NCBI GenBank assembly: GCA_902779395.1 | Contig: CACZBK010000021.1 | Location: 1 to 58,875 of the forward strand | From: an uncultured Lachnospiraceae bacterium | GTDB taxonomy: Bacteria; Bacillota; Clostridia; Lachnospirales; Lachnospiraceae | Direction: 5' to 3' | DNA: 58,875 bases | Shown here: positions 1,125 through 19,858 of the stretch, piece after piece | Numbering within the stretch: the first letter of the stretch is position 1 | Layout of the letters: each line of letters starts with the position of its first letter | The notes under the pieces: model-generated | What the model was told of the DNA's origin: nothing | Databases searched by the model: none | The model's input: only the letters and a program-made list of their open reading frames with translations | Made by a program: the position numbers and the translations under genes

Positions 1125-2495
1125 TCATATTTTTATCTTTACCCATTTGCCCATTTTATATCGTATGCTCGCGAAAGTAAATCTGGAGATCTGATCCGCC
1201 AGCACGCCCAGCCAGATACCAACGATACCAAATCCGAAAACAAAACCTCCCAGCCATGAGACCAGCGTACGGATAACGGTGACCGACATGGTAGCGGCAA
1301 AAGCGGTATACAGCGTGTCGCCGGCGCCTCTTAAACATCCCATGTATATTACCTGTATTATCTGGAACAAGACGATAAAGATTATCACACGCATGATGGA
1401 AACGCCTATATCTATTATGTGCTCTTCTTCAAAGAACATCGACATAAGCCATTTAGCCCCAAAGAAATAGAATGCGATAAGCACCGCAGCGATCATCATT
1501 CCCAACGCCCTGCAGGTGCGTCCGTAATCCTTAGCCAGCTCCGGTTCACCCTGCCCCAGAGATCTGCCTATGAGCGCAACCGCTGCTGCCTGCAGGCCGT
1601 CGCCAAAGCTGAAGGTAAGCCCCATCAGGTTCATTCCCACCTGATGGGCCGCCATGGAATCCATGCCTTTCTTTGCCGCCATGACCGCCGTAGCCATAAA
1701 GCCTATACGCATCAGTATCTGTTCAAAGAAAATACCATAGCCTATGCCTATCAGGCTTTTTAAGGCTTTCACGGAAGCCCCGACTTTTTCCTTTAAAATA
1801 TAAGGTATGCTGATAAAATTATCCGCATTCGATATCGAGATGATACTCATGATCGAAGAGACTACAGTACCAAGTACGGTCGCAAGCGCAGCTCCCACGA
1901 TACCAAGAGCCGGGAAACCAAAATGTCCTTCTATCAGGAGATAATTGAGCACTATATTTACCAGATTTGAAGTCACATTCGTCCTCATGGTTATCCTGGT
2001 ATTTCCGGCGCCTCGCTGCGCAGAGTTTATCGCCATCTGTATGCAGTTAAAGATCATGCCTCCCATGATGATCCTGAAATAAGTCACCGCCGCATCATGT
2101 GTAGCCAGGTCTTCGGGAGTTGCATCAGAAGAACCGCAAAGCCTTATAATAGGATCCGCGCATGCAACGAACAGAATACTCAAAGCCACCGCGGCCGTGA
2201 TAACAAATATCATTGCCGTCAGGAATACACAGTTGGCATCCTGACGCTTGCCGGCACCGAAACGTCTGGCCACCAGTGCGGAAACAGAAACATTTACCGC
2301 AAAAAACAGGGCAAGCCCCATAAACTTAGGCTGGGTAGTAAGACCTACCGCTGCAACCGCATAAGCCCCAAGGCGGCTGACCATAAGTGAATCCACGAGT
2401 CCCGCAAATGCAACAAAAAAAGATTCCACTATGGCAGGCCACGCCATTGAAAATACTACTCTGAAATTTTCTCTGTTATATCCTTTTATCTTCAT
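1125..2495 (-). CDS. MATE family efflux transporter
   Basis: A 456-residue polytopic membrane protein with about 12 hydrophobic segments and the two-halves layout of the MATE family (NorM/DinF type), usually a Na+- or H+-driven drug or metabolite antiporter. Typical pieces are WPAIVESFF near the N-terminus, SAQRGAGNTRI in the middle and CLRGAGDT in the second half. Length is normal. The ATG has only a weak ribosome site (AGGAAA about 13 bases upstream), so translation may be modest. It lies downstream of the two-component/ABC exporter cluster on the same strand, 89 bases after the response regulator. Its substrate is unknown. Confidence 0.9.
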   Translation of the reverse strand: MKIKGYNRENFRVVFSMAWPAIVESFFVAFAGLVDSLMVSRLGAYAVAAVGLTTQPKFMGLALFFAVNVSVSALVARRFGAGKRQDANCVFLTAMIFVITAAVALSILFVACADPIIRLCGSSDATPEDLATHDAAVTYFRIIMGGMIFNCIQMAINSAQRGAGNTRITMRTNVTSNLVNIVLNYLLIEGHFGFPALGIVGAALATVLGTVVSSIMSIISISNADNFISIPYILKEKVGASVKALKSLIGIGYGIFFEQILMRIGFMATAVMAAKKGMDSMAAHQVGMNLMGLTFSFGDGLQAAAVALIGRSLGQGEPELAKDYGRTCRALGMMIAAVLIAFYFFGAKWLMSMFFEEEHIIDIGVSIMRVIIFIVLFQIIQVIYMGCLRGAGDTLYTAFAATMSVTVIRTLVSWLGGFVFGFGIVGIWLGVLADQISRFTFASIRYKMGKWVKIKI

Positions 2496-2584
2496 CCGCT
2501 ACCACATTTCCTGCTCCCTCACTTCGTCCGGCACTCATGTAAATGCTGCGTGAGGCAAAAGACCGATCACCGGCTTTATACTTT

Positions 2585-3232
2585 TCATTTCTTACCGGTA
2601 AGGTAATACACTGCAAGCGCTGTCCTGTGAGAAAGATTTTCTTTAGCCAGGATATTTGTAATATAGTTTTTTACGGTTCCCTCGGAAATATAAAGCTTTG
2701 CTGCGATCTCTTTATTTGAAAGACCCTCGGCCACTGCCCTTACGATATCCAGCTCCCGTTCGGAATACTCTGAAGGATCAAAGCCGTCTGACTGTGAAGT
2801 TCTGTCTTCTGTATTACCGGCTCTTCCTGCCAGGGTCTGTAAGATACTTTCCTCCATAACGCCGGTCCCGTTATATACGGATTTTATCATCTGTTTTAAA
2901 TGCTCCGGCGTGTGGTTTTTGATAAGATAGCCCTTTGCACCGTTCTTAAGCGCCTGCTGGACCAGTTCATCATCATCAAAGGTAGTGAGTATCAATACCT
3001 TTCCCAGATCACGTTCAACGATATGCCTGGTAGCCTCTATGCCATCCATTTCCGGCATCTGTATATCCATCAGGATCACATCCGGCCTGTTATTCTCTGC
3101 CAGCTTTATCAGTTCCCGCCCGTTGGATGCAGTTCCCAGCACCTCAAAATCATCATCAACATCCAGGATGATCTTCATGCCATCCCGTACAAAATCACTG
3201 TCATCAGCTATCATCACCTTGATCTTTTCCAT
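2585..3232 (-). CDS. NarL/FixJ-family response regulator (LnrK-like)
   Basis: About 215 residues. The N-terminal receiver domain has the acidic pair DD near residues 10-11 and the phospho-acceptor Asp at about residue 56 in ILMDIQMPEMDG, with the conserved Thr and Lys (LILTTFDD, GYLIKN). The C-terminal LuxR-type helix-turn-helix reads ERELDIVRAVAEGLSNKEIA followed by SEGTVKNYI. The start chosen is the inner ATG at 3232, after AAAGGATG; the upstream in-frame start has no better site. The gene follows the histidine kinase by 64 bases, and with the ABC genes the set resembles the LnrJK-LnrLMN (YfiJKLMN) linearmycin-resistance arrangement of Bacillus. Its likely target is the palindrome-containing promoter at 7546-7609 (inference). 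Confidence 0.9.
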   Translation of the reverse strand: MEKIKVMIADDSDFVRDGMKIILDVDDDFEVLGTASNGRELIKLAENNRPDVILMDIQMPEMDGIEATRHIVERDLGKVLILTTFDDDELVQQALKNGAKGYLIKNHTPEHLKQMIKSVYNGTGVMEESILQTLAGRAGNTEDRTSQSDGFDPSEYSERELDIVRAVAEGLSNKEIAAKLYISEGTVKNYITNILAKENLSHRTALAVYYLTGKK

Positions 3233-3296
3233 TGGCTCATCCTTTCCGTTCTGCCTCACACATCCATGGCAGATATGTAAGACAGGTAATAAATGC

Positions 3297-4433
3297 TCAG
3301 GCGCCCTTCAGAGGCAGCAGCATATTTACACTGAATCCGGCCTCCGTCTCAAAGTTAATGCTGCCGCCGGCGTTACGTATCCTCTGCCTCATGCCGGATA
3401 TACCCATTCCGTCTTTTACCGTTTCGCATCCAACTCCGTCATCCGACACACTGCACCTTACCATCTCATTCATCACCAGAATACTTATATCTATACGTCT
3501 GCATCTGGAATACTTCATGGAATTAGTCACAGCCTCAAAGGTATTATCGAGTATAACCTCCCACAGAACATCGGGGATCGCTGACAGATTTCCCTCCGTG
3601 TTAAGTTCTGCCTCTACGCCTTTTTTATTGCAGTCCGCGCAAAGTTCATACAGTTGCAGGAGCGCCATCTTTTTCTTTTCCGGGCGCTGTCTGCGAAGAA
3701 TCGCACGTATCTCATCCATCCCGCCGCGCAGCTGGTCGATAACGGACTGTATCATCCCTCCGGCCTTTACAGGATCCTTATCCAACAATACCTTTGCTGC
3801 TTCAAGCTGATAAACGGAACCGTTGATACTGTGTCCCAGCTTATCATGCAGTGTCTGTGAAAGCGCCGCTCTTTCCGAAAGGACCTGATTTTCAGCCTCA
3901 AGCATATTTTTCTTAAGCTCTGCCTGCACCTCGTATTCACGGTTTTCATATTCCCGTTTCAAGCCCTGCTGCAGAACGGTATCCTCATACATCCGCTTTT
4001 CGTACCCCGCCACCACATATTCATGCTGCACATAAAAAACTATCAGCATGGTAACAATCATGAATTCGGTAATATTCCCCAGAGGACTGTCTGCGAACAC
4101 CGCCATATACATAATAAAATACAGGGGTATCCTCCCTTTAAAGAAAGTGATGATCTCAAATCCGAGCAAACATGCCAGCGGCATGAAGCTGCTCCCTCCG
4201 GTATATATCAGCAGTATATTGATAAAGAGCGATACTGCAAGACATAACAGCTTAAGCTTAGCTTCTGTGAGTTCCTTTACAGTCATCACGGATATATATA
4301 ACGCCAGAAGCAGGAGTATCCTTAAGGGTACTCCTGCACTCTCTACATTTCCCGATAATCCGTACACGCCGTAAATGAGCATGAGGATCATACGTACCAG
4401 TATGTAATAGTTTTCCTTTAAGAATTTCCCCAT
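3297..4433 (-). CDS. membrane sensor histidine kinase, HisKA_3 type (LnrJ-like)
   Basis: 378 residues. Residues 1-140 contain about six hydrophobic segments with no large extracellular loop, like the intramembrane-sensing kinases paired with exporters. A coiled-coil linker (about 145-190) leads to the dimerisation domain with phospho-acceptor His about residue 196 in TLHDKLGHSI, and a C-terminal HATPase domain with the DDGVGCETV G-box and GMGISGMRQR. Its start overlaps the end of the upstream permease by 16 bases, so it is translationally linked to the exporter genes. Signal unknown; in related systems it is the membrane-active compound that is exported. Confidence 0.9.
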   Translation of the reverse strand: MGKFLKENYYILVRMILMLIYGVYGLSGNVESAGVPLRILLLLALYISVMTVKELTEAKLKLLCLAVSLFINILLIYTGGSSFMPLACLLGFEIITFFKGRIPLYFIMYMAVFADSPLGNITEFMIVTMLIVFYVQHEYVVAGYEKRMYEDTVLQQGLKREYENREYEVQAELKKNMLEAENQVLSERAALSQTLHDKLGHSINGSVYQLEAAKVLLDKDPVKAGGMIQSVIDQLRGGMDEIRAILRRQRPEKKKMALLQLYELCADCNKKGVEAELNTEGNLSAIPDVLWEVILDNTFEAVTNSMKYSRCRRIDISILVMNEMVRCSVSDDGVGCETVKDGMGISGMRQRIRNAGGSINFETEAGFSVNMLLPLKGA

Positions 4434-5668
4434 TCACTTATCCTTCGGAGTCTGATCCCCAGGCTGCCCGTGCTGATCACTACACACAGGTATGCTGCTG
4501 TTATACATAATACCATACCGAAGGCCGAGTTGTCGCCTGTAATTATCTTTTCCGAAGCATTTAAAAACCATTTCTGCGGCATCAGTGAAGCCAGCATATT
4601 GATGAGATCTGATACATCATCCAGCGGAAAATACAGTCCGCTTAAGAGTGCCGACAAACACCACACGGAAAAGGCCGCAACATTTGCCCCCATAACATCC
4701 CCTATGAGTATTCCCAAAAGCATGCTCACTGAACTGAAGATCAGTCCCAGCAGGAAGATCATCAGGAGGTATTCAGCTCTGCTCATGCCAAGGTCATCGC
4801 TGCTGATAAGCAGGCTGCATATCCCCATCACGCCGGTGGACATAAGCGATATGACTGCTGCCGTGACCAGCTTCGAAACAAAGTACTGCACCGGACCCGC
4901 CTTAGTCAGGCTGATCCTCGTATACACGCCGTTTTTCTGTTCATTTATCGTTGCATGTGCCACGAAGACCCCGCAGAATACAAATCCAAGTGTCATGAAT
5001 GCAAACGCATATCCGATCTGCGTCTTATTATTTACCTGTTCAGCCGTAAGTGTGCTTCCTGCTTTTCCCGACACAGTGATCACTTTTTTATTCTCATATA
5101 CACTGCCCAGTGCCTCCGTAAATTTCTCACCGTCATATGCCGCACCGTTTACAAAAAAAGCGATATCCTCCTTAAGCAGATCGGTCCTCTCATCATCCGA
5201 TAAGGCATAAAGCCTTATATTATCTGCCATTTCCTCTGCTGTGTCTGCTGCGCCAAAGCCGGGATAAATATACAGCGCAGCACCCATCCTGTCCTCAAAA
5301 CCGTCACGCTTCATATGACTCTCTACAAAACTATCCGTAAACACATCTTCCTGTCCGGACAGATCACACCTGCATATCATATACATTCCTGATCGTGCCA
5401 GCATCGTAAGCATATCTTCCGAAAGCCTGCTGCACGAGGCATCATATACCTTTACCAGATACTCTCCGTTTCCGCCGTTATAGGCAACCTTCTCATCTGC
5501 CCCGGACAGCTCTATCACACTTCCGTCATCTTTCTGTATATATGCCGCCGAGCTGTCAAACTGGGATTTAAGTATCAATGTTGACAGTACTGGCGTCAGT
5601 ATCAGAAAGAACCAGAACGCCTTGGTCCGAAGCAGCAGTTTCATACTCATCTTTATCATTGTCTTCAT
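4418..5668 (-). CDS. ABC-2 type exporter permease (LnrN-like)
   Basis: 416 residues. One N-terminal membrane segment (about 17-35) is followed by a large extracytoplasmic domain (about 36-225) and then five hydrophobic segments, the layout of ABC2_membrane_3/YhgE-type exporter permeases. It starts four bases inside the end of the preceding permease (ATGA overlap), so both are made together, presumably as a heterodimeric pore with the ATPase at 6767-7519. The last coding bases overlap the kinase start. Substrate not readable; a peptide or polyene-type antimicrobial is the usual cargo in Lnr-like systems. Confidence 0.85.
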   Translation of the reverse strand: MKTMIKMSMKLLLRTKAFWFFLILTPVLSTLILKSQFDSSAAYIQKDDGSVIELSGADEKVAYNGGNGEYLVKVYDASCSRLSEDMLTMLARSGMYMICRCDLSGQEDVFTDSFVESHMKRDGFEDRMGAALYIYPGFGAADTAEEMADNIRLYALSDDERTDLLKEDIAFFVNGAAYDGEKFTEALGSVYENKKVITVSGKAGSTLTAEQVNNKTQIGYAFAFMTLGFVFCGVFVAHATINEQKNGVYTRISLTKAGPVQYFVSKLVTAAVISLMSTGVMGICSLLISSDDLGMSRAEYLLMIFLLGLIFSSVSMLLGILIGDVMGANVAAFSVWCLSALLSGLYFPLDDVSDLINMLASLMPQKWFLNASEKIITGDNSAFGMVLCITAAYLCVVISTGSLGIRLRRISEWGNS

Positions 5669-6765
5669 TCACCCTTCCTCCCTCTTATATAACCTGCCGC
5701 AACCGCCACAAAGGCGCTTACAAGCATTATCATGATACAGTATGTAATGGCGCTTAACGTATAGTCGCTATGCCCCATGCAGGAAAGTTCCGTAAGAGCC
5801 CTGTTGATATGATATATCGGTGATATATCCTTAAGCACCTGCGGCTGGGTCGAGAGCATATATGTCTCAAAACTGCCTCCGGTGAATCCTGCCACCCATA
5901 CCACGGCAAACACAGCGATTATCGTGACCACCACATTCCCCGTGATGTTATAGAACATAAGCCCGAATGCCGTGGCTGCTGCCGCCGACATCACAACTAT
6001 CAGTGCGGAGATAAGCGGGCTTCCCCAGTGTACTCCAAAGAGCAGTATCGTTATCCCTGCCGTTAAGAGCGACGAGATCGATACTACCAGAAGCATAGGA
6101 ATAAACTTGCCAAGGAACAGCTGTAATTCAGAAAGCCCCGATACCTTAAGTTTCTTGCCGATATGGTATTTCTTCTCGGCAGTGAAGATCCCTGCGCCGC
6201 ATACAACAGCGCACCAGCCGAAATATACCACTTCCACGATCCCGTAATAATCCGAAGCCTCTATCGGTTCCATGTACTGCGGATGCTCTGCATCGATCTT
6301 AACTTCAGGCGGCACATCACTCCTGTATGCATCAAGCATAAACTGCGCGATCCGTTTATCAACACTGCCTATAAGATAATCCAGAGCTTTCGCCTCATAT
6401 TTATGCTCCCCGTTCTGATATACCGTGTATTTTCCGTCCTTTTCAAATACCACGAATCCTGCCAGATCTTCTTCCATGATCTTTTTTTCGACGTCACACT
6501 CCGGATATTCGATCAGGATGATATCATTCTCATTTGCTGCAGTCTTAACCTGCTCCGTCAAAAGCTCAGCCTTAACATCCGTATCATCTGCGCTTATGCT
6601 GTAACCTGCTTTAATACTGCCGTTTGCTTCATATTTCTCCAGCAGATCGTCAAAGGCGCTCGAAAGCAACGCCACCAGTATAACGGGAGTCACGATATAC
6701 AGCAGGATATTCGTAGCGCTGCGCATCATCAGTTTGAAATTATTCTTTATAAGATATCTGATCAT
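5665..6765 (-). CDS. ABC-2 type exporter permease (LnrM-like)
   Basis: 366 residues with the same architecture as its downstream partner: one N-terminal membrane helix, a long extracytoplasmic region (about 45-175) and a cluster of membrane helices in the C-terminal half. The start codon nearly abuts the ATPase stop and the end overlaps the next permease by four bases, so the three exporter genes form one unit. The two permeases are similar in plan but diverged in sequence, suggesting an old duplication that makes a heterodimer. Confidence 0.85.
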   Translation of the reverse strand: MIRYLIKNNFKLMMRSATNILLYIVTPVILVALLSSAFDDLLEKYEANGSIKAGYSISADDTDVKAELLTEQVKTAANENDIILIEYPECDVEKKIMEEDLAGFVVFEKDGKYTVYQNGEHKYEAKALDYLIGSVDKRIAQFMLDAYRSDVPPEVKIDAEHPQYMEPIEASDYYGIVEVVYFGWCAVVCGAGIFTAEKKYHIGKKLKVSGLSELQLFLGKFIPMLLVVSISSLLTAGITILLFGVHWGSPLISALIVVMSAAAATAFGLMFYNITGNVVVTIIAVFAVVWVAGFTGGSFETYMLSTQPQVLKDISPIYHINRALTELSCMGHSDYTLSAITYCIMIMLVSAFVAVAAGYIRGRKGE

Positions 6766-8434: not shown

Positions 8435-10018
8435 TTATCTGCGCTTTATTATGCGTTTTAATTCATCAACAGTTACAGCTTTAAAAACTATAAGCATAAC
8501 AACGTATACAGCTACCGCTGTTATCATAGACACGACCATTGCGATCAGCATGCCTGTCAGCCCTTTAAGGGCAGTATATACCACGAATGCAGCTATCCCC
8601 ATCACACCGGCTGCGGCAAAGGGCCTGATAATGGATTCCTTTAGCTTAAAACTGTATCCCTCAAGCTTTGCAATGCTGCGGCAGTTGAGTACACATACCA
8701 GCAGCGGAAAGCTTACATTTCCTATCACCAGAGCATATACGCCAAGGTCCGTAAAGTACAGGCATCCGGCCACTATCACCACATGGATCGCAAGCGATAT
8801 ACCTGAATGTATCACAGGCAGCTTCATCTTATCACAGCCCTGAAGTATGGACGTACTTAAGGTAGACAATGCATAGAATATGACCGCTGTAGATCCGGTC
8901 TGAAGCAGTGTGACCGCCACCTCCATCAGATCACCCAGCCTCGGAAAGAGCACTCCCATCACAGGCTCTGCCAATACAGCCAGGCCTATAGCCGAAGGAA
9001 TGGCTATCAGCATATTAACCTTGATCACAGTATCTATCTTTCCCTTTACCTTATCCTTTTCACCCCTTGTATATGAAGCAACTATACTGGGAAGTGTGGC
9101 ACTGGCCATGGCTGTGGCAATGGCAGTGGGCAGGTTTATCATCTGGTTGTACTGGGTGTTGAAAATACCCTGGAGATTGGTTCCCGCAGTCTGATCCACA
9201 CCTTTAAGCGCCATCATATTACCGAATATAAGATCATCCAGCGTATAACCCAGCTGATAAATACTCTGACTGATTATAACAGGCAGGACAGTGAGGAATA
9301 CAGCTTTTACCAGCAGTCTGTGATCCTCCGCAGGCATATCCCCCAGATCCTTCTTCCTTATCACGAGCTGTCTGGCAATAAAAAGGATGATAAACAGCAC
9401 AAGGGCTGATAATGCACCAAAGAATGTACCGAATGTTCCTCCCATAGCTCCGTATGCCGCAGCATTTTCACCGACTGCCATACGGGTAAAATAAGCAGCT
9501 GCCGCCACACTTACAACAGCGTTTACTATCTGCTCTATCACCTGGGATACCGCTGTAGGGACCATGTTACGGTGTCCCTGGAAAAAGCCCCTGCAGCAGC
9601 CGAGCATAGCCACCACAAAAACCGTGGGAGCCAGAACACGAAGCGGCATCTCAAGTCCCTGCTTGTGATATACCTTAGCAAAGAACTCCGCTCCGCTATA
9701 CAATGCTATCGATGCTGTCAGACCTGTACATATGGCGAATATCAGCGCATCATGAAAAAGCCTGTGGGCATTCTTCCTGTCGCCTTTAGCCAGACGTGCG
9801 CTCATAAGCTTGGAGATCGCCAGAGGCATACTGTAGGATGACAGCGTAAGAGCTATGTTATAAAGACCGAATGCTACCGAATACAGACCGTTACCGGTAT
9901 TACCCAGTATGTTTGCCATAGGTATACGGTAAATAAAGCCTATCACCTTACTGATAAGGCCGGCAATAGCCAGTATACTGCCCTGAAGGACAAGGTTTTT
10001 CTTAAGACGTTCGTTCAT
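8435..10018 (-). CDS. polysaccharide/lipid flippase, SpoVB/MurJ-like (MOP superfamily)
   Basis: 527 residues with about 14 hydrophobic segments. The N-terminal region (QGSILAIAGLISKVIGFIYR, then LGNTGNGLYSVAF) is typical of the SpoVB/PST branch of MOP flippases, which move undecaprenyl-linked precursors such as lipid II across the membrane. Length is normal. Oddly, the ATG has no visible ribosome site: the bases just upstream are the T-tract of the terminator at 10024-10060. Either a small amount of readthrough message is used or the start is different. It leads a compact run with the TSCPD and GNAT genes. Confidence 0.88.
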   Translation of the reverse strand: MNERLKKNLVLQGSILAIAGLISKVIGFIYRIPMANILGNTGNGLYSVAFGLYNIALTLSSYSMPLAISKLMSARLAKGDRKNAHRLFHDALIFAICTGLTASIALYSGAEFFAKVYHKQGLEMPLRVLAPTVFVVAMLGCCRGFFQGHRNMVPTAVSQVIEQIVNAVVSVAAAAYFTRMAVGENAAAYGAMGGTFGTFFGALSALVLFIILFIARQLVIRKKDLGDMPAEDHRLLVKAVFLTVLPVIISQSIYQLGYTLDDLIFGNMMALKGVDQTAGTNLQGIFNTQYNQMINLPTAIATAMASATLPSIVASYTRGEKDKVKGKIDTVIKVNMLIAIPSAIGLAVLAEPVMGVLFPRLGDLMEVAVTLLQTGSTAVIFYALSTLSTSILQGCDKMKLPVIHSGISLAIHVVIVAGCLYFTDLGVYALVIGNVSFPLLVCVLNCRSIAKLEGYSFKLKESIIRPFAAAGVMGIAAFVVYTALKGLTGMLIAMVVSMITAVAVYVVMLIVFKAVTVDELKRIIKRR

Positions 10019-10023
10019 TTATA

Positions 10024-10060
10024 AAGAAAAACAGGGCAGGATAAAGCCTGCCCCTGTAAA
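10024..10060 (-). terminator. Rho-independent terminator after the 68-aa gene
   Basis: On the minus strand AGGGGCAGG pairs with CCTGCCCT around a short loop and is followed by TTTTTCTTT. It separates the 68-residue gene from the flippase gene, whose start codon is only six bases beyond. Confidence 0.85.
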
Positions 10061-10079
10061 AAACAACTTATACCGTAAC

Positions 10080-10286
10080 TCAGCCAAGTGCCTTTTGCTT
10101 ATACTCGCGGCACTCTTCAGGTGTACCTATCTCACGATAAGCCTGAAGCTCCTGCAAAAGGCTTACCAGATAGTCAACATCCTTCTGACGCATCACGGAA
10201 CTTGCAGTCTGTACCACACCTGCTCCTTCATCTCCTATGGCAAGCGAATCCATTAATATCCTAAGTTCATCTTTAGTATCAGACAT
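10080..10286 (-). CDS. small conserved-looking protein, 68 residues, function unknown
   Basis: I do not recognise a family. The protein is acidic, soluble and probably helical (TKDELRILMDSL, then DYLVSLLQELQAYRE). It is well supported as a gene: GGGAGG seven bases before the ATG, its own extended -10 promoter at 10317-10346 and a strong terminator immediately after the stop, so it is a monocistronic unit. Confidence 0.75.
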   Translation of the reverse strand: MSDTKDELRILMDSLAIGDEGAGVVQTASSVMRQKDVDYLVSLLQELQAYREIGTPEECREYKQKALG

Positions 10287-10316
10287 AACTACCTCCCGTG
10301 AAGAAAATCTTTTTGG

Positions 10317-10346
10317 ATTATACCATGATAAAGCCGCTTTTGTCTA
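10317..10346 (-). promoter_or_regulatory. promoter of the 68-aa gene
   Basis: Reading minus: TAGACA, 18 bases, TATAAT, with TG one base before the -10 (extended -10). Transcription would start about 20 bases before the ribosome site of the 68-residue gene. Confidence 0.65.
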
Positions 10347-10361
10347 TACGGAAATCGCTTA

Positions 10362-11030
10362 TCAGCCGTAAAGCTTTGCTTTTGCTGCCGCAGTCAGCCC
10401 GGCTCTCTGATCGTAAAAAAGTGCGCTTGCTACGGATCCTTTGGTCACATACCAGCGGTCACTTCCGTCAAACTTCGATAATTCGATATTTACCTGGTTC
10501 CCTGCCGCATTGCTCTTTACCCAATATACTATATTGAGTCTGCCAAGCTGTTCAAAGCTCTGGCCATTAAGAGCATCGGTATTGGGCTGGTTAAAGTGAA
10601 GACTTACCGACATGGGCTGAGCAGGATGGAAACCGTTATCCGCAACCGCACCGTCAAAATATGCTCTGGGCAGCCAGCGGTAGTCATCATCCTTAAGGCG
10701 CTCGTTCATATAATTATCCCAGCCTCCGTTTGTGCCGCCCTCAGTAAAGCCGCGCCCGAAAGGCTCAAGATCCGCAAAAAGATACTTCATCATGCCGATG
10801 CCTGTATCCTTATCTGCCGTAAGCGCCATAACAGCATATACATAATAAGCTGCCACGCTGCCGGGATCGCTTACATTTACTGCAGCCTTAAGTTCTTCAA
10901 GATCTTCCACAGGCTTAACCTCTATACGCCTGTCCGTTTTCCATGATGCATCAAGGCCTGCAGCTCCCCCTCCTGTCACTGCCGATGCGATGTCGTTTAC
11001 AGAGCTCATCATTTTGTCAAATAAACCCAT
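10362..11030 (-). CDS. uncharacterised soluble protein (DUF6935-like, tentative)
   Basis: 222 residues, no signal or membrane helix. Striking pieces are FGRGFTEGGTNGGWDNY, the SVSLHFNQPNTDALNGQSF region and a C-terminal IELSKFDGSDRWYVTKGSV. These resemble an uncharacterised bacterial family I would tentatively call DUF6935. The start at 11030 is set by GGAGG eight bases upstream; longer versions overlap atpC with no support. It lies 67 bases downstream of atpC on the same strand with no clear terminator between, so it may be the last gene of the ATP synthase transcript. Confidence 0.75.
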   Translation of the reverse strand: MGLFDKMMSSVNDIASAVTGGGAAGLDASWKTDRRIEVKPVEDLEELKAAVNVSDPGSVAAYYVYAVMALTADKDTGIGMMKYLFADLEPFGRGFTEGGTNGGWDNYMNERLKDDDYRWLPRAYFDGAVADNGFHPAQPMSVSLHFNQPNTDALNGQSFEQLGRLNIVYWVKSNAAGNQVNIELSKFDGSDRWYVTKGSVASALFYDQRAGLTAAAKAKLYG

Positions 11031-11097: not shown

Positions 11098-12899
<1,802 letters not shown>

Positions 12900-13811
12900 C
12901 TATCTTTCCTCCATTTGCTGCCGTGCTTTCTTAAGCCTTCGCATCCTCTGGGCCTTTGCCCCCGCAGAGACTTCGGTTATCTGCTGGGTTATGGCAGCCT
13001 GTCTTACCCTGTTATATTCTTTCTTAAGCCTGGTGAGCAGCTCCTCCGCATTACGGTTGGCATTGCTCATGGCATTCATCCTGGAATTCTGCTCGGCCGA
13101 AAAGGAATCCACAAGTGCCCCGTAGATAAATCCGGCTACATAAGAAGGTATCATTGAATCCAGCACGGATGTAGGTGAAGGATCAAAACGGTATTCCTTT
13201 TCCTGCTTTTCTCTTTTATTTAAGAAATCCTTGCGTGAAAAAGGCAGGAGCCTTGACTTTCTTACCACGCAGTTCAATTCGCTTTCCATGTCACTGTAAA
13301 TGACCGTTATCTCGTCCGCCCTCCCGTTGTCATATTCATCAAGGAGTAATGCAGATATCTCCCTGGCTCTTTCGAAGGTAGGATCCTGGGCCGTATAATA
13401 AAATGTTTCCTCTACAGGGCCCTTATGTTTCTTAAAATATCTGCGCCCGTAATCGCCTACCACATAAAGACGTACATGGCGGTGGGTCTTCATCTCTTCC
13501 TCGGCGGCACGTATCACATTATGATTATATCCGCCTGCCAGTCCACGGTCTGCAGTGATCACCAGATATGCCTGCTTACGGACCTCTTTCGTATGATCCT
13601 CAGGGTAGAAATAATGAGAATCAACATCCTCTGTACTCTGAAATATACGTTTGATCTCGTGCTCCGTAGCCTCAAAATACGGTCTTGTTTTAGCCAGTCC
13701 TTCCTTTGCTTTCCGAAGCTTAGCAGAAGATATCAGGTACATGGCATTGGTGATCTTTTTTGTATTCCGCACACTGTCGATGCGCTGTTTTATCTCTCTG
13801 GCGTTTGCCAT
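12900..13811 (-). CDS. atpG: F1Fo ATP synthase subunit gamma
   Basis: 303 residues. The N-terminal helix (AREIKQRIDSVRNTKKITNAM) and the C-terminal helix (SRMNAMSNANRNAEELL) form the rotating coiled coil of the central stalk, with a Rossmann-like middle (LVITADRGLAGGYN). Its start overlaps the end of atpA by 22 bases. Normal length for the family. Confidence 0.96.
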   Translation of the reverse strand: MANAREIKQRIDSVRNTKKITNAMYLISSAKLRKAKEGLAKTRPYFEATEHEIKRIFQSTEDVDSHYFYPEDHTKEVRKQAYLVITADRGLAGGYNHNVIRAAEEEMKTHRHVRLYVVGDYGRRYFKKHKGPVEETFYYTAQDPTFERAREISALLLDEYDNGRADEITVIYSDMESELNCVVRKSRLLPFSRKDFLNKREKQEKEYRFDPSPTSVLDSMIPSYVAGFIYGALVDSFSAEQNSRMNAMSNANRNAEELLTRLKKEYNRVRQAAITQQITEVSAGAKAQRMRRLKKARQQMEER

Positions 13812-15541
13812 GTGTTTAAAAACTCCCCGGCTGCTGCCTTTATTTCTTCCTTCAACTCATCAGAGAGCTTTCCGCTCTTATCTATCTCGTTGCATATACC
13901 CGCATGCATACTCTCAAAATGCTTAAGCAGATCATCGATAAAAGGTCTTATCTGTCTTATATCCAGCTCCATCAACAGCTGTGCCGTAGCCGTCACAAGG
14001 ATGATGACCATGCTGTGGAGAGGATAAGGCTTACCCGTAGGCTGACGCAGTATCTGCATCAGACCCTGGCCGTATTTAAGCTGCTTCTTTGTAGACTCAT
14101 CCAGATCGCTTGAGAACTGTGTAAAGACTTCCATCTCACGATACTGGGCCAGATCCAGTCGCAGGCTTCCTGCTGCCGCTTTCATGGCCTTTGTCTGTGC
14201 CGCACCACCCACACGAGATACCGAAAGACCAACATTGACTGCGGGGCGCTGTCCGGCGAAGAACAGGCTGCTCTCCAGGAAGATCTGGCCGTCGGTAATA
14301 GATATTATATTCGTGGGGATATAAGCCGAAACATCTCCTTCCTGGGTCTCGACTATGGGAAGCGCCGTTATGCTGCCTCCGCCCAGTTCATCATTAAGAC
14401 GCGCCGAACGCTCCAGTAATCTTGAATGCAGATAGAATACATCACCGGGATAAGCTTCACGTCCGGGTGAACGTTCAAGCAAAAGAGAAAGAGCTCTGTA
14501 TGCAACCGCATGCTTTGACAGATCATCGTAAACTATCAGTACATCTTTACCCTGATACATGAAGTACTCTGCCAGTGCCGTGCCGGCATATGGAGCTATA
14601 TACTGAATGGGCGCCGTTTCGCTCGCGGAGGCGCTTACCACCACCGTATGCTTCATGGCTCCCTTTTTCCTGAGCATCTCAACAAGACGTGATACGCTGC
14701 TGGCCTTCTGGCCTATAGCCACATAGATACATATCATATCCTCCTGATTGAGGATGGCGTCGATGGCTATGGATGTCTTGCCTGTCTGACGGTCGCCTAT
14801 GATAAGCTCACGCTGCCCCCTGCCTATGGGAAACATGGAATCGATCGAAAGGATCCCTGTGTACATGGGAGTATTGACGGCCTGACGCTCCACTATGCCG
14901 GGAGCAGGTGATTCCACAGCCCTGTAATCCACGCTCTGTATCGGCCCGCCGTCATCTATGGCTTCACCCAGGGCATTGACCACCCTGCCAAGATATCCGT
15001 CACCTACAGGTATGCCTGCCGTCTTACCGGTGCGGCGCACCCTGCTGCCTTCACGCACATCCGTATCATCACCGAAAAGTATAACGCCCAGGCTGTCCCT
15101 TCGGATATCCTGGACCATACCCTTTACACCGGATTCAAAAACAACTATCTCGCCGTAGACAGCTTTATCAAGCCCTCTGATGATGGCTATACCGTCACCT
15201 ATCGTGAGTACCTCTCCTTCTTCGCGTGAAAGAGTCTCAACATTCCAGCTGTCTATCGCTGTCTTAAAAAGACCTATAACATCTGAAGAATCATCATCGC
15301 GTCTGACAACATTCTCCAATATTTCTTTTAATTGTGCAAAACGCCCCTGCTTGCTGCGGTCATATACATCATCGCCCACGACCAGCTTAAAGCCGTTCCC
15401 CAGGTCTTCATCCTGTTTGAATACCAGCTCATATTCCTTTGCATAACGCCTTCCGATAAACTCCTTAAGGCGCTCCTCCTGCTGGGTATCGGGTTTTTTA
15501 GCCGCATACAGATAAGCGCGGGGGGCCTTTTTTTCAGCCAT
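13790..15541 (-). CDS. atpA: F1Fo ATP synthase subunit alpha with N-terminal delta-like domain
   Basis: 583 residues, about 80 longer than usual. From roughly residue 90 it is a normal alpha subunit: P-loop GDRQTGKTSIA, then SVSRVGGAAQTKAM. Residues about 18-78 are extra and read like the C-terminal domain of subunit delta/OSCP: helix, KEYELVF strand, then GNGFKLVVGDDVYDRS and GRFAQLKEIL, matching the GG-f-i-GD-viD-S-xxGRL-xxL pattern of AtpH. No separate atpH lies between atpF and atpA, where it normally sits; atpF runs straight into atpA with an eight-base overlap. I infer a gene fusion that lost the delta N-terminal domain. All three alpha chains per F1 would then carry the extension. A distant atpH elsewhere cannot be excluded. 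Confidence 0.93.
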   Translation of the reverse strand: MAEKKAPRAYLYAAKKPDTQQEERLKEFIGRRYAKEYELVFKQDEDLGNGFKLVVGDDVYDRSKQGRFAQLKEILENVVRRDDDSSDVIGLFKTAIDSWNVETLSREEGEVLTIGDGIAIIRGLDKAVYGEIVVFESGVKGMVQDIRRDSLGVILFGDDTDVREGSRVRRTGKTAGIPVGDGYLGRVVNALGEAIDDGGPIQSVDYRAVESPAPGIVERQAVNTPMYTGILSIDSMFPIGRGQRELIIGDRQTGKTSIAIDAILNQEDMICIYVAIGQKASSVSRLVEMLRKKGAMKHTVVVSASASETAPIQYIAPYAGTALAEYFMYQGKDVLIVYDDLSKHAVAYRALSLLLERSPGREAYPGDVFYLHSRLLERSARLNDELGGGSITALPIVETQEGDVSAYIPTNIISITDGQIFLESSLFFAGQRPAVNVGLSVSRVGGAAQTKAMKAAAGSLRLDLAQYREMEVFTQFSSDLDESTKKQLKYGQGLMQILRQPTGKPYPLHSMVIILVTATAQLLMELDIRQIRPFIDDLLKHFESMHAGICNEIDKSGKLSDELKEEIKAAAGEFLNTWQTPER

Positions 15542-16022
15542 TTGCCTTCGTCCTTTCCGCTTCTTTTATAAACTCATCGTAAGGATCTGCAGCATCTTCG
15601 CCCTGCATGAGCTTCTTTGCCGCCTGTTCGATCATCTCGGATATATCCTGCTTTGCTCCGCCGATGATGGCCTTCTTCTCACGTTCGGCCTGGGCGCGGG
15701 CATCTGAGAGTATCTGCCTGGCTTCTTCTTTAGCCGAACTGATCTGTTCCTTTTTAAGCTCTTCTATCTCTTCTGCAGCCGCCTTCTTGCTCTCCGCGAG
15801 TTCTGTTTCGGCTTCCTTTATCTTCTCTTCATACTCGGCAAGCTTTTTCTTTGCAGCCATCTCGGCATTTACGGCCCCTTCCGTCAGATCCCTTATCTGA
15901 TCAGCCCTCTTATCCATGAATTTGACCACAGGGGCATAAAGCAGGATATATAAACCTGCGAAGAGGATAACCGCATTAAAAAGATGCAGGAGTATCTGTA
16001 CAAAATCTATTCCCAAAGGCAT
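15534..16022 (-). CDS. atpF: F1Fo ATP synthase subunit b
   Basis: About 162 residues. One N-terminal membrane helix (FNAVILFAGLYILLYAPVVKFM) is followed by a long Ala/Glu/Lys-rich helix, forming the peripheral stalk. GGGAGG is spaced correctly for the ATG at 16022; a TTG six bases upstream is the only alternative. The gene overlaps the start of atpA, leaving no room for atpH. Its C-terminal end should meet the delta-like domain on alpha. Confidence 0.94.
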   Translation of the reverse strand: MPLGIDFVQILLHLFNAVILFAGLYILLYAPVVKFMDKRADQIRDLTEGAVNAEMAAKKKLAEYEEKIKEAETELAESKKAAAEEIEELKKEQISSAKEEARQILSDARAQAEREKKAIIGGAKQDISEMIEQAAKKLMQGEDAADPYDEFIKEAERTKANG

Positions 16023-16040
16023 GATCAACGCCCTCCCTTT

Positions 16041-16436
16041 TTACAGAACGAATACTATCAGTATAGCAACGATAAGCGCGTAGATAACGACCGTCTCGAT
16101 AAACACAAGACCAAGCATCAGCTGTGTCTGGATCTTGCCTGCAGCCTCGGGCTGACGTGCCACGCCTTCATTGGACTTTGCGATCGCGATACCCATAGCC
16201 ATAGCACCCGATAAAGCCGCAAGACCGATAGCTATCGCAGCTGCAATAGCCTTGCTGCCGGTAGCATTGTCTGCCACAGCAGCTGCTGCCGATGCCGCCG
16301 CATCTTCACCGGCCATCACTGTTACGACTTTCTGCGGTCCTGCTGCATGAGCCTTTATCGCACCGGCAAAGGTGAATCCGGTGAGCAAAAGTATCACTGC
16401 CGCAAGTACGATGGATAAGGATTTAAGCTTCTTCAT
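16041..16436 (-). CDS. atpE: F1Fo ATP synthase subunit c with signal peptide
   Basis: 131 residues instead of about 75-90. Residues 1-31 are a classic signal peptide (KK start, hydrophobic core, AHA-A end), followed by an Ala-rich linker to about 60 and the two c helices. The conserved loop is RQPEA (R94) and the ion-binding carboxylate is E114 in FIETVVIYAL. By hand alignment to Ilyobacter c, the Thr after the Glu and the Tyr match the Na+ type, but the Gln32 position is Met81. The helix-1 GxGxGxG motif is replaced by AxSxAxA, as in alkaliphile c rings of larger size. The ATG at 16436 follows GGAGG and overlaps the atpB end by 14 bases. Confidence 0.93.
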   Translation of the reverse strand: MKKLKSLSIVLAAVILLLTGFTFAGAIKAHAAGPQKVVTVMAGEDAAASAAAAVADNATGSKAIAAAIAIGLAALSGAMAMGIAIAKSNEGVARQPEAAGKIQTQLMLGLVFIETVVIYALIVAILIVFVL

Positions 16437-17277
16437 TTTTAACTTCCTCCGCTTTAATATTTTCATTATTTGTGTGGTGCACCTCGCTCACTTCTCCGTA
16501 ATAGAAACTGGTGAGCATCGTAAGCACATAAGCCTGGATCAGTGCGTGAAGCACGGTAAAGAGCACTCCCACTACCACCGGCAGGCCAAAGCTCAGTGTT
16601 ATATAGTAATAAACCAGTTCCGTTGTGAGCATACCGCTCATCAACGCACCGAAAAGACGGAAAGTCATGGATATGGGCAGCGAGAATTCCTTAAGAGTCT
16701 TTAAGATACCCTTGCCTCCGTTGGCAGCGATACCGCCGCTCATGATAAAGAAGAATGATAAAAAGCCCATGCAGATGGCGCCGTTGATATTGGCCAGCGG
16801 TGCCGGCAGGGTTATGGAATGTCCCTCTGTGGTTATGGCCTGAAGGCCGAAGAGTTCAAACATGGTCCCCACAAAGATATATGAACCGGCGCCGAAGATA
16901 TAGCCTCCAAGCGCCTTATATCTGTGGGGTGAATTGGTCCTGCCAAGATCATGGAAAAAGCCCACCCAGGTCTCTATGATGAGCTGAAGCTTACCGGGAA
17001 CAGGCTTAAAATTCGGTATGACAAAAATACGGATGATAAGGGCAGATACAAGAAGGATGCCCGTTACGATATATGCGGAGATCAGTGAAGGATCTACCTC
17101 GAATCCCAGGAAATTTATCTTATTGATATCATGAAGAACTGCGTCCTTCATGGTCTGCTTTATGGTCTCGTGCTTTTCCGGAGTGGGGAGCATTACTATC
17201 CCCGCTATACATACGGCTATAAGAACCAATGCTATGATGATTGTGCTGACTCTTTTCTTCTTAGGCAAAACGATCAT
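16423..17277 (-). CDS. atpB: F1Fo ATP synthase subunit a
   Basis: 284 residues with about six membrane segments. The essential Arg of the ion channel is in LPISMTFRLFGALMSGML (E. coli Arg210 equivalent), and the C-terminal helix has HALIQAYVLTML. First gene of the operon, about 15 bases after the predicted transcription start. The ATG at 17277 touches its GGAG site; a TTG three codons in (17268) has better spacing and may be the true start. There is no atpI upstream. Confidence 0.94.
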   Translation of the reverse strand: MIVLPKKKRVSTIIIALVLIAVCIAGIVMLPTPEKHETIKQTMKDAVLHDINKINFLGFEVDPSLISAYIVTGILLVSALIIRIFVIPNFKPVPGKLQLIIETWVGFFHDLGRTNSPHRYKALGGYIFGAGSYIFVGTMFELFGLQAITTEGHSITLPAPLANINGAICMGFLSFFFIMSGGIAANGGKGILKTLKEFSLPISMTFRLFGALMSGMLTTELVYYYITLSFGLPVVVGVLFTVLHALIQAYVLTMLTSFYYGEVSEVHHTNNENIKAEEVKNEEA

Positions 17278-17335: not shown

Positions 17336-19858
17336 TTATTCCGCCAAAACCTCTATGGGATATTCCCTGCCCTCTATCACCGCCTTTACGGTATAGTTTC
17401 CGGGTGCAGCCGCGCTTATCTTTACTTTACGCCTATCTTTGGTCTGTGTAAGCGTTAACGCAGGATCATGCTCCCACTTAACGGAAGTATAAGCACTCAC
17501 GTTTTTGACCGTCACGGTCTTTGTTTTTCCGGGCTTTAAGCTTATTGCCGTCTTTACTTTGGGGAACTTTACTTTGAGCACGGCAGTATACTTTGCCGCA
17601 TACTTTCCTTCACCGATGATGCAGCTGACCTTAACATTTCCGTTTTTACGGGCGGTAAGTACCGATCCCTCCAGACTCACACTTTTAGTTTTTGACGGGA
17701 TAGCGAATATGATACTCTGCCCTTTAGGGAGATCGGAAACATATCCGTTCAGATCTGCCGTCTGCCCCTCATATGTAAGGTCGCATTTAGCACCGTCGGC
17801 ATTCACAGATTTAAAAACCGGTCTGCTGATCTCTATTTTTACGCAGGCAACAGGGATATATTTCTTACCTTCTTTTTTGTACCCCGTAATAATTACACTG
17901 CCTTCCTTTTTGGCACTGACCACACCCTTTGCGGAAACGGAAGCCAGCCTCGTAGAATCGCTTTTGAATTTCTTTAATCTTATGCCGTTTAAGCCCGGCT
18001 CCTTATACATGATATCAGCCACATTGAGCTTCTGCTTTGCTGCCAGGGCAACCCCATCCAGCTCGAGTGGAGTCTCAGGCGCTGACGGGACAGGAGTAAC
18101 TGTTCCTGTCGGAACTGCTGTCGGCGTTACTGTCACCGAAGGGGAGGGAGTATCTGTTCCCGTAGGAGATGCTGTCGGGGTTACAGTCATTGTAGGAGAC
18201 GGGGTATCTTTCCCTGTAGGGACCGCTGTCGGGGTTACTGCCACCGAAGGAGACGGGGTATCCGCTCCTGTCGGAACTGCGGTAGGTGTAACAGTAACGG
18301 ACGGTGAAGGTGTGTCTGCCCCTGTAGGCTCCACCGTAGGCGTGGGCTCAGCCTTACCTGTGGGCTCCACTGTAGGTGTGGGGCTCCCTACCGCTGCCGA
18401 TCCGCCGTATAACTCTGCCAGGCCGGCGCAGGCCAGGGCAAAACATCCGTTATAATCAAGAGCCGGCTCGGTATACTGGTAGCTGTTCACATCATCCAGA
18501 TATCCTTTGGAATCCGGACCTCCGATCAGCGCACCCTTAAGCACATGTTTTGCCGAACCTTTATCGGGATTGGCCCCGCGGTGATGAATCTTTGAAGGAT
18601 TATTCCCATAGCCTATCAGAAAGCTGTAACCATAGGGATTATTGCCCAGTATATAATCCATCTGAAACTTTGCGCCCTTTGCATATGCCGAATCCTTATC
18701 TCCGCCCGCAAGCGCCAGCGCCGTCATCTGCATCGCACAGTTATAGCGCGACACTCCCCAGGTTACATCAAAATCATTATAAAACCGATCGGAAAGCCCC
18801 TGTTTGTTATCATATGCATCTTTCAGTGCCTGAGCGTATACGGCGTCATTTGTTTTCTTATACATGAGCGCCGCAAAGCCCTGCCATACCTTATTCCAGC
18901 TGTAGAAATCATAATCTCCGTAATACACTCCCTGGTAAATATAGCATCCGCTGTTGGGCTCATATACCGGCTTATCGCCCTCTCCGCAAAGCCACAGCCA
19001 TGCTTCCGCCATGGCAGTCTCGTCCAGGCCATAGAGCGTTTCGCTTGAATAGTATCCGGCTGTTTCATAGAAGGTGGCGAGCCCCCCGAGATAATTGCCC
19101 TGATGCTCTTTTCCGAATTTTAAAAGAGCTTTCGCATACCTGATACATTCATCGTAATACTGCGCATCAGTATTCTTATACATCCATGCGCATCCTGCCA
19201 GAGCAGACGCCATTTCCCCGCACACCGCAGTATTGTTATATTCCGCGCTTAACCAGTATGTTGTGCGCTCATATGTCTGTTTCTCGGGCGAGGACCAGTC
19301 ATTATGATCGACAGTTCCGTTTGCGACCACATGGCATATCGCTGCCACCTCACCGTCTGCATCAAGGAAAGTGGTCTTCATGAGATAATCCGCATTGCGC
19401 CTGACTATCTTTAACAGATGCTCTTTTGCATCCGCTTTTTTATACACCTCAGGATGAAGATAATCCGACAGTGCCAGGCTGCTGCCGGCAAATCCCATGG
19501 TCAGATTGAATTTCACATGATCGCCGGCATCATGATATCCGCCGGATACATCTACCTTACCGTCGCCATCCGTATCGACCAGGCTGCGGTACTTTGCCGG
19601 AAAATTATCGGCTTTATCCAAAGAAGCCTCAGCATCATAAGTATGGCAGTTTCCCCGCCAGCTGATGCCAAGAGTTACGACATCGTTTCCGCAGGCGTTT
19701 TCGTCAAAGAAATCCAGGCTCAGCGCCAATGCCTCCGGATAATCATTATCCCCTCCTGCTGCCTGCACGGTCTTTGCTGCCGGAATGCCCTGCAGCTGTG
19801 TAGATACCAGCACGAACGTCAATACTGTCATTATCAGGATCCTGAACTTCTTTTTCAT
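17336..19858 (-). CDS. secreted GH9 endoglucanase with PT-rich linker and C-terminal module
   Basis: 840 residues. Signal peptide to about 34 (VQA-AG). The GH9 catalytic domain spans about 36-485: base region GGYHDAGDHVKF (Asp110, Asp113), active-site RYNCAMQMTALALAG and HHRGANPDKG, and acid Glu464 in YTEPALDYNGCF. A Thr/Pro-rich linker of about five 18-residue repeats (about 487-595) leads to a beta-rich module (about 597-840) with a Big-type segment (VSAKGVVSAKKEGSVIITGY). That module is clearly related to the end of the BspA-like protein at 52929-55064. No dockerin, CBM3 or sortase signal is visible. The ATG follows AAGGAG; the DUF2812 gene ends 46 bases upstream, so it may share the PadR-controlled transcript. 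Extracellular cellulose/beta-glucan breakdown. Confidence 0.93.
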   Translation of the reverse strand: MKKKFRILIMTVLTFVLVSTQLQGIPAAKTVQAAGGDNDYPEALALSLDFFDENACGNDVVTLGISWRGNCHTYDAEASLDKADNFPAKYRSLVDTDGDGKVDVSGGYHDAGDHVKFNLTMGFAGSSLALSDYLHPEVYKKADAKEHLLKIVRRNADYLMKTTFLDADGEVAAICHVVANGTVDHNDWSSPEKQTYERTTYWLSAEYNNTAVCGEMASALAGCAWMYKNTDAQYYDECIRYAKALLKFGKEHQGNYLGGLATFYETAGYYSSETLYGLDETAMAEAWLWLCGEGDKPVYEPNSGCYIYQGVYYGDYDFYSWNKVWQGFAALMYKKTNDAVYAQALKDAYDNKQGLSDRFYNDFDVTWGVSRYNCAMQMTALALAGGDKDSAYAKGAKFQMDYILGNNPYGYSFLIGYGNNPSKIHHRGANPDKGSAKHVLKGALIGGPDSKGYLDDVNSYQYTEPALDYNGCFALACAGLAELYGGSAAVGSPTPTVEPTGKAEPTPTVEPTGADTPSPSVTVTPTAVPTGADTPSPSVAVTPTAVPTGKDTPSPTMTVTPTASPTGTDTPSPSVTVTPTAVPTGTVTPVPSAPETPLELDGVALAAKQKLNVADIMYKEPGLNGIRLKKFKSDSTRLASVSAKGVVSAKKEGSVIITGYKKEGKKYIPVACVKIEISRPVFKSVNADGAKCDLTYEGQTADLNGYVSDLPKGQSIIFAIPSKTKSVSLEGSVLTARKNGNVKVSCIIGEGKYAAKYTAVLKVKFPKVKTAISLKPGKTKTVTVKNVSAYTSVKWEHDPALTLTQTKDRRKVKISAAAPGNYTVKAVIEGREYPIEVLAE
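18075..18385 (-). repeat. tandem repeats encoding the Pro/Thr linker of the cellulase
   Basis: About five imperfect 54-base units, each encoding a variant of TPTAVPTGADTPSPSVTV. The units differ mainly at synonymous sites and at a few codons. Such arrays expand and contract easily and set the distance between the catalytic domain and the C-terminal module. The complementary strand has a long open frame here that is an artefact of this composition. Confidence 0.85.

Follow-up and report, generated by a model that had tools for sequence, protein, structure and literature searches.

The window analysed here, the whole stretch of 58,875 nucleotides of contig CACZBK010000021.1 from an uncultured Lachnospiraceae bacterium, carries an F-type atp operon in which the C-terminal domain (CTD) of subunit delta is fused to the N-terminus of subunit alpha, a conclusion that we regard as near certain. 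The explanation that we favour as a whole, and hold to be probable though not assured, is that this alpha belongs to a second, complete F-type ATP synthase that has lost the N-terminal domain (NTD) of delta and bears the socket for the b dimer on the alpha N-terminus, and that the enzyme is a natural "multi-stalk" ATP synthase of the H+ type, present beside one of the Na+ type.

The delta domain on alpha

A sequence-only reading of this DNA had proposed that alpha is about 80 residues longer than normal, and the position of the Walker A motif bears this out, since it starts 248 residues into the fused alpha as against 167-175 in the unfused alphas listed. The comparison of the extension with the OSCP family, suggested by the same reading, gave a match above the curated cut-off: alpha residues 4-75 correspond to positions 100-172 of the 172-position Pfam OSCP profile (PF00213; E 1e-7, 32.6 bits, cut-off 22.3), and a PF00213 search of the whole genome recovered the fused domain at E 3.2e-8. 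A hidden Markov model (HMM) that we made from 81 separate deltas matches residues 4-76 with E 3.5e-16. The delta-like domain is therefore upheld, but its limits, earlier placed at about residues 18-78, have to be moved to 4-76. In the AlphaFold2 model, calculated from 19 aligned rows (mean predicted local distance difference test score (pLDDT) 71, predicted template modelling score 0.62, block means 77-87 over residues 11-80), the extension folds in the order beta-alpha-beta-beta-beta-alpha (strand 8-13, helix 19-33, strands 38-43, 51-55 and 58-61, helix 64-81), followed by a helix at residues 88-97, at the place of alpha's N-terminal helix. The fusion joint is tight, with a median of 4 residues (range 0-22, measured on 76 loci with a few duplicates among them) between the end of the delta CTD and canonical alpha residue 1, which indicates that alpha's own N-terminal helix has been kept.

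The delta NTD is absent from the operon, as had been claimed: the profile match begins only at position 100, and neither the open reading frames (ORFs) nor the PF00213 search revealed a separate full delta within the fused operon, where delta is represented by the CTD on alpha only. The overlap of atpF with atpA was likewise read correctly, as the stop end of the b gene (15534) lies inside the alpha gene, whose start is at 15541, so that no space for atpH is left. All seven genes of the F-type set (alpha, beta, gamma, epsilon, a, b and c) score above the Pfam cut-off, the fused alpha reaches 724 bits against TIGR00962 (cut-off 484), all subunit frames are open, and the Walker A motif, the arginine-finger region and the stator arginine of subunit a are present on inspection by eye.

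Features of the fused atp operon; positions refer to the window
Feature	Position	Strand	Evidence
complete atp operon, order a-c-b-alpha-gamma-beta-epsilon		-	ORFs and Pfam
deltaCTD-alpha fusion subunit, 583 residues	13790..15541	-	ORF; Pfam OSCP and ATP-synt_ab_N, ab, ab_C
delta (OSCP) CTD, alpha residues 4-76	15314..15532	-	PF00213, delta HMM, AlphaFold2 model
retained alpha N-terminal helix, residues 88-97	15251..15280	-	model helix; junctions compared with unfused N-termini by eye
subunit b (atpF), 164 residues as ORF listed	15534..16028	-	PF00430, E 1.5e-12
subunit c (atpE), 141 residues, N-terminal extension	16041..16466	-	PF00137, E 3.8e-15
subunit a (atpB), 284 residues, additional N-terminal hydrophobic stretch (by eye)	16423..17277	-	PF00119, E 5.6e-17
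subunit gamma (atpG)	12900..13811	-	PF00231, E 2.3e-91
subunit beta (atpD)	11511..12899	-	Pfam; TIGR01039, 799 bits (cut-off 463)
subunit epsilon (atpC)	11098..11514	-	PF02823, E 6.3e-17; PF00401, E 2.7e-6

The N-terminal extension of c resembles a signal peptide (by eye), and an extended c together with an extended a recurs in many deltaCTD-alpha relatives. The c subunit measures 106-174 residues in 30 of the 45 such relatives in which it was found; the whole delta-alpha fusions lack the a and c extensions (c of 72-84 residues, n=18; a of 227-236 residues, n=10). These length counts, as well as the c-motif counts given below, leave out L154, L155, L156, L165, L150, L172 and L053. Adjoining the operon, at 17336-19858, is a gene for an 840-residue protein with a signal-like N-terminus, a putative family 9 glycoside hydrolase (by eye).

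Evolutionary history and selection

The history of the fusion was followed on a tree of alpha cores comprising 122 of 166 alpha loci; duplicates (L154, L155, L156, L165), truncated, nearly identical or otherwise odd sequences (L121, L052, L150, L092, L104) and the rows of L053-L112 beyond a chosen set of 22 were excluded, and no alpha ORF was obtained for L034 and L062. Separate deltas are basal in the clade of the window, and a single fused clade of 59 rows (support 94 in the Shimodaira-Hasegawa-like approximate likelihood ratio test) unites whole delta-alpha fusions of about 670-690 residues, fusions without the NTD of about 570-650 residues, and derived states. Whole and NTD-less forms occur as sister pairs (L008/L018, support 98; L007/L013, support 93), which suggests that the NTD was lost several times. 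A single NTD loss in the main fused clade is 42.8 log-likelihood units worse, yet with a P-value of 0.069 in the approximately unbiased test (calculated without L172) it is not rejected at 5%. Further fusions lie outside the main clade, namely L022, L028, L138-L140, the pair L024/L075, L146, L148, L149 and L151-L153, as well as L056 and L063, which are on long branches. Parsimony gives 8 changes between fused and separate delta and 7 changes between presence and absence of the NTD.

None of the separate deltas listed has clearly lost its NTD in the unfused state. A candidate for a gene with the delta CTD only, L172, turned out to have pieces of the delta NTD and of b in other frames and was read as a full delta gene with a frameshift, which remained in the alpha tree as the only row of its category ("sepdC"). 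The series leads from separate delta via the whole delta-alpha fusion to loss of the NTD, and fusions occur in other lineages too. The whole fusion would be a natural intermediate, in which the NTD may become redundant.

Both the extension and the core are under purifying selection in the relatives compared. The ratio of nonsynonymous to synonymous substitution rates (dN/dS) of the extension is 0.05-0.26 in the 10 pairs of relatives, out of 13, that allowed its calculation (the window's gene is not among them), synonymous sites being near saturation in most pairs. Where dS is about 1 or lower, in four pairs, the values are 0.07, 0.13, 0.15 and 0.26, the first two of these being whole delta-alpha fusions.

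Distribution among relatives

At the family level, a delta-joined alpha is present in 23 of 100 genomes (own included), each verified in sequence; 22 of them belong to the alpha clade of the window and the remaining one is G071, while a further fusion may exist in G089, broken by a contig end. At the class level the matches listed include at least 36 of 391 genomes, from 16 families, with a delta-joined alpha, 33 of them verified in sequence and three (G150, G296, G337) by open frame. At the phylum level, 22 of 398 genomes were retrieved at E 1e-82, a threshold that would miss weaker fused lineages: the five from the window's own class are fused without a stop, and the 17 from other classes have stops that separate delta from alpha. 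The named relatives of the window alpha are Lachnospiraceae and other Clostridia.

A second operon and delta elsewhere in the genomes

The genome of the window possesses another atp operon, canonical and located on G000:C10, whose atpH is full and separate (E 2.4e-51). The sequence-only reading had proposed a genome-wide search for atpH as a check, and taken by the letter the full copy tells against that reading; but this copy lies within its own canonical operon, and 5 of 25 genomes have no second match above the cut-off. The sample consisted of the own genome, 21 others with fusions in the same alpha clade, G071, and the separate-delta genomes G025 and G078. In G043, G062, G068, G071 and G079, which are 96-99% complete and have one strong F-type alpha each among the matches listed, the CTD fused to alpha is the only OSCP match above the cut-off, a count limited by G071, in which further deltaCTD-like repeats on a b' protein are invisible to Pfam. 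PF00213 matches that start at position 22 (G062) and position 54 (G068) were considered as candidates for a delta NTD and rejected, the part before position 100 or so being subunit b. In G005:C15, alpha-like fragments at 19-795 and 9945-10756, some with several stops, are perhaps decaying extra atp genes.

Unusual relatives

Several relatives carry the joining of stalk subunits further. In L029 (G068, 1656-3992) b, the delta CTD and alpha form one chain of 778 residues (PF00430 E 9.4e-18, PF00213 E 1.2e-6), whose b is the sole b above the cut-off in that genome. In L075 (RUG282, 4377-6644) a b'-deltaCTD-alpha chain of 755 residues is accompanied by a separate b; in its model (mean pLDDT 69, with most of the b' part below 65), helices 2-30, 35-119 and 125-157 precede the delta CTD (175-252), and the alpha N-terminal helix spans 258-274. 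The two loci lie far apart in the alpha tree. Because b-deltaCTD-alpha is a single chain, each of the three alphas would bear a b if the chain stays uncut. No same-genus relative of G068 that could confirm its b-fusion was found among the 31 genomes searched (itself included), and no unbroken chain like L075 among the matches listed from the 391 class genomes.

L043 has two tandem delta CTDs ahead of alpha (E 6.7e-10 and 1e-27, with L043 itself within the profile). Next to the deltaCTD-alpha gene of L024 (G071), positions 984-1943 encode a 319-residue b'-like protein with two C-terminal deltaCTD-like repeats (BLASTP E 9e-7 and 2e-4; profile matches weak). The alphas L141 (G352) and L144 (G285), which belong to the same clade, are extended by only about 20 residues; their operons show no delta, which looks like a complete loss of this subunit, and matches first taken for a short upstream delta in these two loci are the b subunit.

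Ion specificity and cellular role

In c subunits the Gln of the first transmembrane helix is, as we take it, the Na+ ligand position. The c of the window has Met there and lacks the complete Na+ motif. Among the readable c subunits, Gln is found at this position in 1 of 50 deltaCTD-alpha operons (L024), in none of 18 delta-alpha operons and in 1 of 2 b-deltaCTD-alpha operons (L075); both L024 and L075 have Ala after the Glu. The c of the canonical operon, on the other hand, contains GQG and ETT. As an incomplete Na+ motif is equated with H+ in PMC11738941, the motifs suggest that the fused enzyme is of the H+ type, and the enzyme of the canonical operon looks Na+-type. The own genome has a match to RnfC and none to Complex1_49kDa at E 0.001 (other hydrogenase families were not searched), so that no Ech-like pump was seen. 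The fused enzyme could serve as an ATP-driven H+ pump, or for ATP synthesis at low proton motive force, beside an Rnf/Na+ circuit; this role has less support than the proposed additional stalks.

Probable multiple stalks and alternative explanations

The top match of the alpha model in a Foldseek search against the PDB is 9jc1_I (574 alignment columns, template modelling score 0.67/0.70), and phmmer aligns alpha residues 8-542 with residues 5-542 of this chain, which is named delta,alpha. Entry 9jc1 is the FoF1 of Bacillus PS3 with an engineered deltaDeltaN-alpha fusion (Ueno et al. 2025, Nat Commun, PMC12229609). According to these authors, the delta NTD lies on the pseudo-threefold axis atop F1, grips the alpha N-termini and restricts the enzyme to one stalk; removal of the NTD and fusion of the CTD to alpha allows as many as three each of b2 stalks and a-subunits. 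The a- and b-content rises to 2.2x and 1.8x that of the wild type, as judged by sodium dodecyl sulfate polyacrylamide gel electrophoresis (SDS-PAGE), and H+/ATP to 5.8 vs 3.0 (PMC12229609). Like the window's subunit, the engineered one has the delta CTD on alpha via a short linker, with neither NTD nor separate delta; it differs in being man-made and in the removal of the epsilon C-terminal domain, whereas the window's enzyme has a whole epsilon and extended a and c.

By analogy, the covalent link between the delta CTD and alpha would take over the NTD's grip on alpha and free the axis, so that F1 would offer three equal sockets. More than one b2 stalk could then most probably dock, each bringing its own a-subunit, and the extra stalks and a-subunits would raise the ion/ATP ratio ("low gear"). 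The binding of b to the fused domain, a stalk number above one and a high H+/ATP are thus inferred from the engineered enzyme. In many fused operons the b C-terminus keeps a YDxFL-like end, as in separate-delta operons of the same clade (by eye). The sequence-only reading had envisaged three copies of the extension for one b dimer: a changed stalk stoichiometry is plausible, but the single b dimer is doubtful, and since the engineered enzyme takes up to three b dimers and a-subunits, an F1 with three sockets and as many as three stalks is to be preferred.

Several observations weigh against this picture. Cryo-electron microscopy of the engineered enzyme showed 0, 1, 2 and 3 stalks in 15, 51, 26 and 8% of particles (PMC12229609). 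The whole delta-alpha relatives retain three NTDs, though the axis should fit one, L141 and L144 lack an operon delta, the b-fused chains come from one draft genome each, and the ion type rests on a sequence motif. Because even at E 0.1 PF00213 did not pick up the domain fused to alpha in G044, other diverged deltas might likewise escape it; in addition, the canonical operon's delta could conceivably serve the fused F1 in trans in this genome. Among the alternatives, the one that deserves most attention, although we think it unlikely, is a single-stalk enzyme in which one delta CTD binds a lone b2, the other two are idle, and the fusion just saves a subunit and secures attachment. The 51% of single-stalk particles agree with it, and so do the whole fusions with three NTDs, which may be single-stalk enzymes; yet without the NTD nothing known obstructs the other sockets, the engineered enzyme averages about two stalks (by SDS-PAGE and H+/ATP), and the natural b-deltaCTD-alpha chains are ill-suited to one b2. 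That the delta of the canonical operon completes the fused F1 in trans, the extension being secondary, draws on the presence of a full atpH in the genome and seems very improbable to us, given that 5 of the 25 genomes examined have no OSCP match above the cut-off other than the fused domain, on which purifying selection acts in the relatives compared.

We give equally little credence to the possibility that plain alpha is also made, by an internal start or by proteolysis, leaving one socket-bearing alpha per F1. Shine-Dalgarno (SD) matches of at least 5 nucleotides with a start codon were counted at 161 loci (leaving out L154, L155, L156, L165 and L150): of 87 unfused genes (L141, L144 and L172 included), 65 have one near the alpha start, and 51 of 74 fused genes have one at their own start. 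At the corresponding place in the fused genes there are 6 of 74, with sites of 5 or 6 nucleotides, the strongest in L031 (6 nucleotides), and L029 has a TTG with TAAGG 8 nucleotides upstream at the border of b and the delta CTD; but control windows inside fused genes give 35 of 222, so that no internal start is indicated, and the gene of the window has no SD match of at least 5 nucleotides at the delta/alpha junction. Least credible of all is that the second operon is degenerate or its product unassembled: in favour are its status as an additional copy and the lack of an operon delta in two relatives, but the subunits are open with the catalytic and stator residues in place (by eye), extension and core are under purifying selection in relatives, and in five genomes the fused alpha is the only strong F-type alpha listed.

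The multi-stalk reading remains the one we prefer. A broader proposal, attractive but somewhat short of an even chance in our estimation, is that a Clostridia-wide family of natural multi-stalk ATP synthases evolved stepwise and more than once, first by fusion of delta to alpha and then by loss of the symmetry-breaking NTD, with b joined as well in two lineages (three stalk subunits hard-wired per F1, comparable to the three stalks of V-ATPases), and that its members are low-gear enzymes with up to three a-subunits, some of them H+-type beside a Na+ high-gear enzyme. The ion/ATP ratio is usually taken as set by the size of the c-ring, and Ueno et al. write that only one a-subunit is present in each ATP synthase to date (PMC12229609), a rule that the engineered deltaCTD-alpha breaks. 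With the window and its relatives, the architecture is seen in many Clostridia families, with more than one origin and with an intermediate that survives in the whole-delta fusions, and a number of genomes have the fused alpha as their only strong F-type alpha, with the only OSCP match on it; the natural existence of multi-stalk ATP synthases becomes directly testable. The b-tethered forms might retain stalks that the engineered enzyme tends to lose, and, if the proposal is true, estimates of ATP yield for these fermenters would change.

Comparison with known systems

The b-delta fusion of mycobacteria is present in one copy per enzyme and retains the NTD. Like the window's protein, the mycobacterial and Gordonia fusion (PMC5709465; 7jg5) joins delta to another stator subunit, which is b there and alpha here. 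N-ATPases, in which delta is absent or b-fused (PMC11738941), also lack atpH in their F-type operon, which often accompanies an ordinary one; however, the window's operon cannot be assigned to them, either by gene order (beta-epsilon-X-X-a-c-b-alpha-gamma in N-ATPases, PMC11738941, vs a-c-b-alpha-gamma-beta-epsilon in the window) or by the alt_F1F0 alpha model TIGR03324, against which the window alpha scores 576 bits (cut-off 750.5). The occurrence of H+ and Na+ ATP synthases in one cell is paralleled by Pseudobutyrivibrio ruminis, with one enzyme of each kind (PMC11187502); its pair goes together with Ech and Rnf, while the window's genome has the RnfC match and no Complex1_49kDa match.

In the consulted parts of open-licence papers, we found no mention beyond Ueno et al. 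of an alpha-delta fusion, of a whole delta-alpha intermediate or of a b-deltaCTD-alpha chain: the passages of PMC11738941 and PMC5709465 at hand describe b-delta fusions only, and those of PMC6131620 and PMC4478896 have no bearing on the fusion. PMC12229609 notes that multi-stalk enzymes may occur in nature and reports a natural delta-alpha fusion without the NTD in Acidaminococcus fermentans, to which UniProt G4Q3K6 and A0A1I2C5T3 look similar. By that description these are natural NTD-less delta-alpha fusions like the window's, which is therefore a further case of a kind already in print. A. fermentans belongs to the Negativicutes; the named relatives of the window's alpha are Lachnospiraceae and other Clostridia, in which the fusion comes with intermediates and a companion canonical enzyme.

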